From Agromyces rhizosphaerae (GTDB lineage Bacteria > Actinomycetota > Actinomycetes > Actinomycetales > Microbacteriaceae), in the NCBI RefSeq assembly GCF_027925245.1, contig NZ_BSDP01000001.1:2728001-2792000 (forward strand): DNA of 64,000 bases. The letters run 5' to 3'. Position 1 is the stretch's first letter. Each line of letters starts with the position of its first letter. The position numbers were made by a program, and so were the translations under genes. Shown here in pieces: positions 35,835-38,587 of the stretch. The notes beneath the pieces were generated by a model, which did no database searches, was not told the DNA's origin, and saw nothing but the letters and a program-made list of their open reading frames with translations.

Positions 35835-37988
35835 TCAGTCGTCGACCACAACGAGCTCCTGCGTCGCGCGGGTCATGGCGACGTAGCGGTCGACCGCGCC
35901 CTCGATGCCGTCGCCGAACGCGTCGGGCTCGACGAGCGCGACCAGGTCGAACTCGAGGCCCTTCGCCTCGACGGGGGAGAGGGAGCGCACGCGCCCCGTG
36001 CCGCCCGCGACCGAGTCGACCGAGAGCGAGGCGTCGCCGATCACGCACGCGACCCCCTCGTGCGTCGCCAGCCACCGCTCGAGCACCGACCCGAGTTCGG
36101 CGCGCGCCACGCGTCGCACCGGCACCCCGGTCGAGCGCACCGACGTCGGTACGTTCGCATCCGGGATCGCGCGTCGGATCACGGGCTCGGCCTCCGCCAT
36201 GACCTCGGCCGGCGTGCGGTAGTTCACGCGCAGCGTCGCGACCGAGGCATCCGGGAGCCCCACCCGCCGCAGGCGCTCCTCCCACGACTCGGCGAAGCCG
36301 TGGCGCGCCTGCGCGCGGTCGCCGACGACGGTGATGCTGCGCGACGGGCAGCGCGCGATGAGCATGCGCCACTCGGCATCCGTCAGCTCCTGCGCCTCGT
36401 CGACGATCACGTGCGCGAACGGGCCCGCGAGCCGGTCGGGGTCGTCGGCGGGCAGCACCGCATCGTCGACGAGGCTGTTGCGCAGGTCGTCGCCGTCGAG
36501 CCAGCTGAGGATGTCGTCGCCTGCCGCGATCAGGCGCTCGATGGTCTGCGACATCGCCTCGCGCTCGGCGGCGAGCGTCGTCTCGCGCTCGCGGCGCCGC
36601 CGTGACGCCCGCGGATCGCCGAGGCGGCGCCGGGCCGCGTCGAGCAGCGGCAGGTCGGCGCTCGTCCACTCCGAGGCATCCGTTCGCTGCAGTGCCGCCA
36701 CCTCGTCGGGCGCGAGCCAGGGCGCGCAGCGGCGCAGGTAGGCGGGCACCGACCAGAGGTCGGCGACGAGCAGGGATGCCTCCACCAGCGGCCACGCCCG
36801 AGTGAACGTCCGCGCGAGCGACGTGTTGCGGGCCAGCGCGCGACGCAGCTCGTCGACCGACACCTCGTCGTCGTCGAGCCGGTCGGCCAGGATCTCCACG
36901 AGCGTCTCCCAGACCTGGTCGCGCGCCTCGTTGTGCGGCGTTCCGGGCTCGGGCGACGCGAAGGCCTCAGCCCAGTCGCCCGGGGCCAGCCACAGGTCGC
37001 CCCACGGGGTCTCGACCTCGAGCGCGTGCGTCGGCGGCTCCTCGTAGAAGGCCACGGCGGGTTCGATCGCGTCGATCATTCGAGCGGATGCCTTGAGCCT
37101 GGCCGCGTCCGCATCGCGCTCGCCGACCGCGTCGGCGCCCTCGGCGACGAGCTCGCGCAGGGTGCAGGTCTGCACGCCCTCCTCGCCGAGGCTCGGCAGC
37201 ACATCGGCAACGTACGCGAGGTACGACGGGCTCGGCCCGACGAACAGCACACCGCCCCGGCCTGCGCCGAGCCGCGGGTCGGCGTGCAGCAGGTAGGCCG
37301 CGCGGTGCAGCGCGACCACGGTCTTGCCGGTGCCCGGCCCGCCGTCGACGACGAGCGCCCCGCGAGAGTCGGCTCGGATGATCGCGTCCTGGTCGGCCTG
37401 GATGGTGCCCAGCACGTCGCGCATGCGACCCGACCGCTCGGTGCCGAGGCTCGCGATGAACGCCGACTCGTCGTCGAGGGCGAGCGCGTCGCCCGGGGCA
37501 TCCGCATCGAGCAGTTCGTCCCAGTAGTCGCGCACCCGACCGCCTGCCCAGCGGTATCGTCGCCGGCTCGCGAGCCCCAGCGGGTTCGCTCCGGTAGCCG
37601 CGAAGTAGGGCTCCGCGGCGGGCGTGCGCCAGTCGAGCAGGAGGCGGCGGCCGTCGTCGTCGGTCAGGCCGAAGCGGCCGACGTACACGGGGTCGCCGCC
37701 GTCGGCGGGCACGATTCGGCCGAGGCACGCGTCGGCGCCGAACCGGCGCAGCGCGCGCAACCGGGCCGACAGGTGATGGATGCGCAGGTCGCGGTCGAGC
37801 GCCTGCTGGCCGCGCCCGCCCGGGGCGCGGCGCTCGGCGTCGAGGCGGGAGTCGAGCTCGGCGATCTGCCCGGCGATGCGGTCGGCGATGCGGGCGAAGT
37901 GCCGCTCGTCAGCGGCGATGCGTGCGGGGTCGGCCTTGTGGGCGTGGGTCGGAGGGAGGTCGAAGGTGCGGGTCGAGAGGCTGGTCAC
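35835..37988 (-). CDS. helR: RNA polymerase-recycling ATPase HelR (HelD family)
   Basis: 717 residues, UvrD/HelD-like superfamily 1 ATPase. An N-terminal coiled coil (about 20-90) precedes domain 1A with Walker A GGPGTGKTVVALHRAAYLL near residue 210. An insertion with HelD-type linker follows, then Walker B VIVDEAQELTDAEW and motifs GDRAQARHG, LRVNYRTPAEVM and EAKGLEFDLVALVEP. HelR proteins pull stalled or rifamycin-bound RNA polymerase off DNA and give rifamycin tolerance in Streptomyces. The GTG at 37988 has GGAG 7 bases upstream. The promoter carries a rifamycin-associated element, which independently supports the HelR rather than plain HelD assignment. Confidence 0.93.
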   Translation of the reverse strand: MTSLSTRTFDLPPTHAHKADPARIAADERHFARIADRIAGQIAELDSRLDAERRAPGGRGQQALDRDLRIHHLSARLRALRRFGADACLGRIVPADGGDPVYVGRFGLTDDDGRRLLLDWRTPAAEPYFAATGANPLGLASRRRYRWAGGRVRDYWDELLDADAPGDALALDDESAFIASLGTERSGRMRDVLGTIQADQDAIIRADSRGALVVDGGPGTGKTVVALHRAAYLLHADPRLGAGRGGVLFVGPSPSYLAYVADVLPSLGEEGVQTCTLRELVAEGADAVGERDADAARLKASARMIDAIEPAVAFYEEPPTHALEVETPWGDLWLAPGDWAEAFASPEPGTPHNEARDQVWETLVEILADRLDDDEVSVDELRRALARNTSLARTFTRAWPLVEASLLVADLWSVPAYLRRCAPWLAPDEVAALQRTDASEWTSADLPLLDAARRRLGDPRASRRRRERETTLAAEREAMSQTIERLIAAGDDILSWLDGDDLRNSLVDDAVLPADDPDRLAGPFAHVIVDEAQELTDAEWRMLIARCPSRSITVVGDRAQARHGFAESWEERLRRVGLPDASVATLRVNYRTPAEVMAEAEPVIRRAIPDANVPTSVRSTGVPVRRVARAELGSVLERWLATHEGVACVIGDASLSVDSVAGGTGRVRSLSPVEAKGLEFDLVALVEPDAFGDGIEGAVDRYVAMTRATQELVVVDD

Positions 37989-38061
37989 GCGGCGGCTCCG
38001 GGGTCGAGGGAAGCGCGGCGCCGACGCCGAAGCGGGTCGCGGAATCGGGCTGCGACCAGCG

Positions 38062-38097
38062 ATTCTGCCCCCGTCACCCCCTCTTGCCGCAAGCCCC
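38062..38097 (-). promoter_or_regulatory. Rifamycin-associated element in the helR promoter
   Basis: On the minus strand, 38097 to 38079 reads GGGGCTTGCGGCAAGAGGG, matching the published 19-bp RAE (GGGGCTTGCGGCAAGGCCC) at 16 positions, including the whole CTTGCGGCAAG core. A CAGAAT -10 candidate lies at 38067-38062, so the element overlaps the expected -35 region. RAEs control rifamycin-inducible resistance genes, among them helR. Confidence 0.88.
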
Positions 38098-38128
38098 CCT
38101 CGGTGCGGGATAATGGATGTGGGGGAAT

Positions 38129-38587
38129 TCAGGCGAGGAGCCAGCACACCTCGGTGCGCCATGCCGCCGGGTCGGGCTCCTCCTCCGGGTCGCTGAGGTA
38201 GCACTCCCACATGGTGTCGCTCGGCACGAGTCCTCGCTCGGCGACGGCGCGTCCGAGTTCGTCCCACGTGGTTCCGAGCGTCTCGTAGGGGCCGACGTGC
38301 ATCGTCGACGCGACCGTGCCCGCGGGCAACTCGCCCGCGCCGACCTTCCCGGTGTCCGTGAAGGCACCGGCCACGGGGATCCCAGCCTCGACGTCGGCCG
38401 TGGCACCCGGCATGCCGTGGTAGATCGCGAACGGGGCTCCGGCCGGCTGAACGCCCTGCTCGCCCACCGCCCGCATGATGGCGGGGTAGGCACGCGCGAA
38501 GAACTCGCTGAGCTCGGGCATCGGCACGGTCTCGCGGATGCTCGCCGTGGGCTGCGCGGCGCGGTCGCCGATCGAGATGTCGGCCAT
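38129..38587 (-). CDS. GyrI-like small-molecule-binding domain protein
   Basis: 152 residues. The GyrI/AraC effector-binding fold is recognised by the duplicated SHS2-like pattern: IRETVPMPELSEFFARAY, FAIYHGMPGATADVEAGIPV, and ASTMHVGPYETLGTTWDELGRAV with the conserved Glu. There is no DNA-binding domain. Such stand-alone proteins bind cationic drugs or hydrolyse cyclopropanoid compounds. It starts 3 bases after the lipase stop codon with its own AGGAGG, so the two form an operon. The neighbour downstream is helR, but that gene has its own promoter. Confidence 0.85.
   Translation of the reverse strand: MADISIGDRAAQPTASIRETVPMPELSEFFARAYPAIMRAVGEQGVQPAGAPFAIYHGMPGATADVEAGIPVAGAFTDTGKVGAGELPAGTVASTMHVGPYETLGTTWDELGRAVAERGLVPSDTMWECYLSDPEEEPDPAAWRTEVCWLLA

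Follow-up and report, generated by a model that had tools for sequence, protein, structure and literature searches.

The rifamycin-associated element upstream of helR in Agromyces rhizosphaerae and its relatives is probably the shared -35 of two divergent promoters

The helR locus of Agromyces rhizosphaerae

The window, that is, the whole 64-kb stretch of A. rhizosphaerae DNA that was analysed, carries on its minus strand a helR gene (35835..37988; 717 aa, GTG start) encoding an RNA polymerase-recycling motor ATPase, which scored 1174.3 bits against the NCBIfam model NF041254 (cut-off 750), in agreement with the name given to this gene in the preliminary description. The predicted protein was aligned over residues 35-714 with the HelD chain of M. 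smegmatis (6yxu_H; E 2.9e-95), and its translation contains the ATP-binding motif GGPGTGKT and the DWR motif (LLLDWRTPAAEP), which is reported as conserved in all HelD proteins (PMC8655204). The region where the PCh-loop, which displaces rifamycin in class II HelD, would be expected falls inside the aligned stretch. A gene for a GyrI-like small-molecule-binding domain (38129..38587, minus strand; Pfam PF06445, 60.4 bits, cut-off 26) lies upstream of helR.

The core of a rifamycin-associated element (RAE), CTTGCGGCAAG, was located on the minus strand at 38083..38093 (centre 38088), at a core-to-GTG distance of 94 nt from helR (GTG at 37988). It is a palindrome except for its central base, and is proposed here as the shared -35 of two promoters. 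The left arm is a G-run (GGGGGG, 38094..38099, minus strand) that falls in conserved alignment columns, whereas the right arm (38077..38082, minus strand) reads AGGGGG instead of the usual RCCCCC, and the outer palindrome is lost; the same right arm was seen in a related locus (L136), and a different alteration in another (L101). The RAE-like sequence of the preliminary description is thus present before helR as GGGGGG CTTGCGGCAAG AGGGGG, and compared with the 19-bp palindrome around CTTGCSGCAAG its core is exact, its left arm kept and its right arm changed. The 19-mer GGGGCTTGCGGCAAGAGGG agrees at 16 of 19 positions, if A is permitted at +6, with the consensus of the present helR alignment, which is not that of the original RAE publication; all three mismatches are in the right arm, with GGG where CCC is usual.

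Downstream of the core, a CAGAAT hexamer of the weak VANNNT class (38062..38067, minus strand) is placed as the -10 of helR, with a 19-bp spacer from TTGCGG, which upholds the earlier placement of the element over the -35 region; the predicted helR transcription start is at 38055 on the minus strand, +33 from the core centre. On the plus strand, GATAAT (38109..38114) stands at the same 19-bp spacing from TTGCCG as a candidate opposite-strand -10, and its alignment position predicts an RNA start at a G (38121, plus strand). The GyrI-like gene ends 8 bp from this predicted start, so that the outward RNA would run antisense into it.

Within the 64-kb window there is one CTTGNNNCAAG sequence, and CTTGCGGCAAG has a single exact copy in the whole genome. 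A 70-bp profile was built from 90 other helR sites of the family, with the window species and the two relatives closest to it by helR excluded. The window site ranked 1 of 127,862 positions with this profile, remained at rank 1 when the core and arms were removed, and was also at rank 1 by the left flank alone and by the right flank alone; with a core-only profile it ranked 2, after its own other strand. Its score (47.8) did not reach the 5th percentile of the training set (58.8), indicating a real but degenerate member of the RAE class. A module search of the whole genome, allowing up to three mismatches, gave 12 matches versus 32 for a backwards control. These 12 consisted of the helR site on both strands (1 mismatch), one match at 2 mismatches and nine at 3, indicating one convincing RAE in this genome, before helR; this was the outcome of the scan for further copies that the preliminary description had proposed. 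A looser search pattern, a 15-mer allowing two mismatches, was discarded because its matches were drowned in noise.

helR and the RAE core in the Microbacteriaceae

Proteins of the helR type were detected in 59 of the 299 sampled genomes of the family (own count of rows with E no higher than 1.3e-135), and within the genus 44 of 60 genomes had one; helR is not rare in the Microbacteriaceae. One hundred helR upstream regions were collected, of which the family sample supplied 59 and the genus another 41. The CTTGNNNCAAG core was found in 92 of them, plus a one-base variant in one other, so that the pairing of RAE and helR, little documented in this family according to the preliminary description, proved to be normal there, and the comparison with related genomes that it had suggested came out in favour of a kept element. 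These 93 sites were aligned, leaving out the seven regions in which the core could not be recognised. The sites had been chosen by CTTG and CAAG, and the conservation of those eight bases in the alignment is therefore a product of selection; the inner core bases, which were not used in the selection, were 95-97% conserved apart from the C/G centre. The core was found in none of the 17 upstream regions of HelD paralogues fetched from the family. One arm was lost or flipped in eight of the 93 sites, three of which belong to the window's own group (the window, L136 and L101).

The 11-mer CTTGCGGCAAG was also present in 167 of the 299 family genomes, some of them lacking a helR match (e.g. G005). 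The core alone was therefore set aside as evidence: it is weak by itself, and the signal is borne by its position and flanks.

One species of the genus (G308) has two helR genes (L105 and L141), each preceded by its own RAE module, and in a close relative of the window species (G327) the helR match (C1:428254-430403) is broken by one TGA. In one genus (g59), the CTTGCSGCAAG core is missing from six of eight helR upstream regions (L052, L057, L058, L255, L256 and L258), all six of which, as judged by eye, retain an opposite-strand CANNNTA block plus a GACGATGG block; in L052, L057 and L058 these blocks are separated by 48 nt instead of 41 (also by eye). A replacement core is possible in these regions.

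Two predicted promoters at a fixed distance from the core

In the alignment, the core is flanked on both sides by -10-like hexamers in a mirror-image arrangement, in the order opposite-strand -10 (TANNNT), 15 nt, core, 15 nt, sense -10 ([C/G]ANNNT). In 85 of the 93 sites the opposite-strand TANNNT was separated from the core by exactly 15 nt, and at any other offset between 5 and 44 it was found in at most six of 93; among the eight sites without it, five have GATAAT (the window included) and one CATAAT. On the other side, [C/G]ANNNT was present exactly 15 nt past the core in all of the sites (93/93), while TANNNT was found at that position in none of them (0/93). With TTGCSG of the palindrome read as the -35 in either direction, the spacer is 19 bp for both promoters, and the predicted starts lie 33 positions to either side (-33 and +33) of a common centre. 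The predicted opposite-strand +1 is a G in 90 of 93 sites, preceded by a T in 70 of 93, and all 93 sites have pyrimidines at the predicted sense +1 and +2. Of the 93 sites, 34 have a start-codon triplet at +35, and those 34 mRNAs may consequently be nearly leaderless.

In M. smegmatis, TANNNT is described as the preferred -10, VANNNT as yielding less transcript, and A or G as preferred at +1, and no -35 consensus was found there (PMC6448022). By these rules the outward promoter would belong to a strong class and the sense promoter to a weak one. In the alignment, the T, A and T of the opposite-strand TANNNT are fixed at 92-98%, the three bases between them being much looser. A ranking of promoter strength by plain matches to TATAAT was dropped, since both sides gave equal counts (3.87 and 3.90), and the strong/weak contrast accordingly relies on the -12 T and the +1 base. 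The central core base and the first base of the sense -10 were associated (C/C 41, C/G 17, G/C 33 and G/G 2; Fisher p 0.007), which hints at tuning, with common ancestry uncorrected in this p-value; the shared ancestry is the reason why this association was set aside as an argument.

The predicted sense start could be compared with a published one. An oligonucleotide over the M. smegmatis arr promoter is printed with the RAE, TGGGGCTTGCGGCAAGGCC, and with CACAAT, and the arr transcription start is given as 31 bp before the GTG (PMC7882622). By our own count on the printed arr oligonucleotides, CTTGCGGCAAG is followed by 15 nt, CACAAT and a start at +33 from the core centre, so that the published arr start agrees with the sense start predicted from the alignment.

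Four loci (L229, L230, L232 and L242; core near position 1521) have TANNNT on both sides of the core, each before an ORF that by eye resembles a FAD monooxygenase. These are possibly variants with a stronger sense promoter.

The module in separate loci, other genes and other families

A separate set consisted of 80 named HelR loci, mostly from Streptomyces, Nonomuraea and other genera, five of which, from Microbacterium or Agromyces, are possibly shared with the first set. The core, in the form [CA]TTG[CT][CG][GA]CAAG, was found in 64 of the 80, and all 64 had both -10s, none having only one; in the other 16 no core was found within the upstream DNA examined, some of these leaders being long. 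In a stricter first pass, the core was detected in 57 of the named loci, one of which was cut off at the left, and the other 56 all had the opposite-strand TANNNT, while a sense TANNNT was seen in none of the 57. Several helR genes of Streptomyces and Nonomuraea type (L263, L275, L279, L281, L293 and similar ones) share a common leader that ends near the start codon in a ATCGGAGC-like block, in some cases after a GGTCGCNAGCGACC repeat; this block may be a second layer of control.

Sites were also picked solely by the core and a sense CANNNT, in 299 genomes of the family and 296 of the phylum, with matches in 54 and 37 genomes, respectively, some of them by chance. From the 100 distinct sites listed (57 plus 46, with three repeats), 78 were opened and 22 left unopened; gene classes were assigned by a crude motif search, which gave 64 sites with a resistance-gene signature downstream, overlapping the 93-site set where both contain family helR genes, and 14 without. 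The opposite-strand TANNNT, which had played no part in this selection, was present in 59 of the 64 signature sites: helR 20/25, rox-like genes (FAD monooxygenases) 29/29, rph 6/6, arr 3/3 and rgt-like 1/1. The five signature sites without it, all helR, have GATAAT (three times), CATAAT and TAGTTG. Two of the 14 signature-less sites had the opposite-strand TANNNT, a third is a real module seen from the other side, and the remaining 11, all without TANNNT, look like chance sites.

NCBIfam models were run on 20 downstream proteins, namely L161 and 19 that have a signature. The leading families agreed with the signatures, although several scores were under the curated cut-offs, partly due to ORFs cut by the end of the locus; complete proteins under the cut-off were the Rgt-like L193 (495 of 800 bits) and the rox-like L161 (709 of 800), and the best match of L178, L211 and L219 was a general monooxygenase subfamily. 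The module was present in 11 families (f1, f2, f5, f6, f9, f17, f18, f20, f21, f32 and f45). A search of the family with the core and TANNNT gave 66 matches in 60 of 299 genomes versus 11 for a backwards control (own count). For finding rifamycin-response genes, the module, that is, the core with two -10s at 15 nt, is far more specific than the core by itself.

The predicted outward RNA

The first nine bases of the predicted outward RNA are rich in purines (mean 82% in the family and 90% in the named set). Its first 30 nucleotides (+1..+30) fold beyond shuffled sequences (mean z -1.70 for 93 sites and -1.93 for 63 sites), while a control stretch just downstream gave mean z values of -0.24 and 0.00. 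A strict test for a hairpin followed by a U-run was positive in 31 of the 93 sites, compared with 1 on the other strand and a mean of 5.85 (maximum 11) in shuffles. Among 66 modules it was positive in 21, compared with 2 on the other strand and a mean of 5.6 (maximum 9) in shuffles. Although these strict terminators are in a minority of sites, they suggest that the outward promoter could in many species make only an RNA of about 25-35 nt. The window copy has no hairpin by the strict test and has GATAAT instead of TANNNT as its opposite-strand -10. No known RNA family was found for the outward RNA, a single match being far below threshold, and a second RNA-family search with ten loci returned only a tRNA. 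Over this stretch, a genome of the same genus (G340) is identical for the 33 nt compared to Agromyces sp. Soil535 (L324), in keeping with the family named in the preliminary description.

Proposed mechanism and alternatives

The comparison of sequences shows the architecture and its exact spacing, as well as its spread over 11 families and five classes of downstream genes, and the RAE is probably a shared -35, perhaps an operator too. We infer that the outward promoter fires and represses helR, and that the polymerase itself may be the sensor. The preliminary description was right about helR and the overlap with the -35, and the pairing of the two is normal in the family, but its interpretation was too narrow, the predicted divergent promoter pair with its opposite-strand -10 having been missed.

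We lean slightly towards a mechanism in which the RAE would be a palindromic -35 shared by an outward promoter of the strong class and a resistance-gene promoter of the weak class, with the drug shifting the balance between the two. The outward promoter, typically with a TANNNT -10 and a G start, would in many species produce only a very short hairpin RNA, while the promoter facing helR would have a weak-class [C/G]ANNNT -10 and a pyrimidine start. These overlapping promoters should not have room for two polymerases at a time, so that without drug the outward promoter should hold helR low. Rifamycin, by stopping RNA polymerase after 2-3 nucleotides, would tilt the balance to helR, whose product frees drug-bound polymerase; the sensor may be RNA polymerase itself or a factor binding the palindrome. 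The more sweeping proposition, that the RAE is not primarily a regulator site but a two-way promoter at which the polymerase senses rifamycin, a strong outward promoter that often stops at once competing with a deliberately weak one for the -35, as one switch for helR, arr, rox, rph and rgt in many actinobacterial families, is put forward tentatively, with somewhat less than an even chance of being correct.

The strongest objection to the polymerase as sensor is a result from Bacillus. There, rifampicin is sensed by a strong antisense promoter paired with a weak sense one, and a drug-insensitive polymerase abolishes induction; this pair is convergent, with a distance of 39 bp, and when the two are moved closer the polymerases interfere sterically and induction is lost (PMC12802891). 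The RAE pair excludes by design, and a drug-stalled outward polymerase should therefore block helR too, unless it leaves quickly, which calls for a further step such as the rapid loss or removal of the drug-bound polymerase from the outward promoter. Simple occlusion alone was rejected, as it does not give induction by a stalling drug. Variants of the mechanism would invoke unstable drug-bound complexes at the outward promoter, clearance of the drug-bound polymerase by HelD or HelR, or a nucleotide-pool effect on the pyrimidine start.

The -35 boxes of promoters are usually much looser than the RAE core. The strict conservation of the core in 92 of the 100 helR regions, unlike that of a usual -35, fits a specific binding factor and counts against a reading by promoters only. 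A transcription factor dimer might bind the RAE palindrome and activate upon rifamycin or a stalled polymerase, the mirror promoter being a by-product or a second output. The recurrence of the core with G/C arms in many families speaks for such a factor, which we regard as a real possibility, albeit well short of an even one, and which has been considered by reviewers and authors in the field (PMC10719064, PMC12802891). It would leave the strict opposite-strand -10 and start unexplained, however, and it sits poorly with the eight of 93 sites in which one arm is lost or flipped and with the six of eight g59 helR regions that by eye lack the core yet have the opposite-strand CANNNTA block; we know of no RAE-binding factor of this kind. 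The upstream block could instead be an UP-like element or a factor site for the sense promoter, rather than an opposite-strand -10: it precedes the predicted sense start by about 54-59 bp, and UP elements can sit at such distances. This is very improbable, given that the fixed T, A and T with a loose middle are the signature of a housekeeping -10 in an actinobacterium (PMC6448022), that the bases after the block give a T-then-G start in most sites, and that the hairpin and U-run are nearly confined to the outward strand (31 vs 1 of 93; 21 vs 2 of 66).

A separate question, compatible with the other readings, is whether the window copy is a decaying relic, with helR no longer rifamycin-inducible in this species. 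The lost right arm, the GATAAT, the missing hairpin and the profile score under the 5th percentile all point in this direction, as does the helR match of the close relative G327, interrupted by one TGA. We nevertheless consider it rather unlikely, since the core, both -10 positions, the spacing and an open 717-aa HelR are all kept, and since one-sided arm changes are found in other genomes and GATAAT in other genera too. Genes for HelD or HelR with an upstream RAE are reported as rifampicin-induced in M. abscessus and S. venezuelae (PMC10719064, PMC8655204), which makes inducibility a reasonable prediction by homology. Induction of helR by rifamycin, as expected in the preliminary description, is by this analogy plausible in A. 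rhizosphaerae, although it should not be taken for granted there, the right arm and hairpin being degenerate.

Comparison with known systems

The mechanism of RAE induction is termed unresolved in the Bacillus sensor paper (PMC12802891) and is also left open in a review (PMC10719064), and a 2026 review on M. abscessus states that it is not yet known how actinobacterial rifamycin-resistance genes are switched on (PMC13001253). The opposite-strand promoter-like element at every core of the separate set (64/64) lends itself to a concrete and cheap test. Should the polymerase prove to be the sensor, there may be no regulator of the kind supposed.

The sites described here resemble the actinobacterial RAE (Spanogiannopoulos 2014; Surette 2022; Hurst-Hess 2022) in having the same core, in its position over the -35 and in the kinds of genes downstream (helR, arr, rox-like, rph and rgt-like). 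They differ in that the element is here the centre of a mirror-image pair of predicted divergent promoters, whereas the corresponding passages of the review describe sense promoters (PMC10719064). An opposite-strand promoter at the RAE was not found described in the later published papers that were searched. For M. smegmatis helD, two sense promoters are reported, P1, which starts some 20 bp before the RAE, and P2, whose -35 falls within it (PMC10719064); the predicted opposite-strand start of the module is 24 bp upstream of the 19-bp RAE.

In M. smegmatis rpoBC, the drug likewise shifts use between two nearby promoters, but these belong to one operon, with one promoter upstream of the other, and the account of them in the review mentions no palindrome (PMC10719064). 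The rifampicin alarm of Bacillus helD/pps is similar to the predicted RAE pair in having a strong antisense and a weaker sense promoter before a HelD gene, and differs in that its promoters are convergent, with 39 bp between starts, whereas the predicted RAE pair is divergent with one -35 (PMC12802891). The convergent layout of the Bacillus type, with 39 bp and no mutual exclusion, is thus not that of the RAE module. A counterpart of the strong/weak pairing may be present in the sequence classes of the predicted promoters of the family sites, with TANNNT and a G start versus [C/G]ANNNT and a pyrimidine start, the opposite-strand -10 of the window being GATAAT. If the polymerase is the sensor in both cases, induction in actinobacteria and in Bacillus would be one principle in different layouts.
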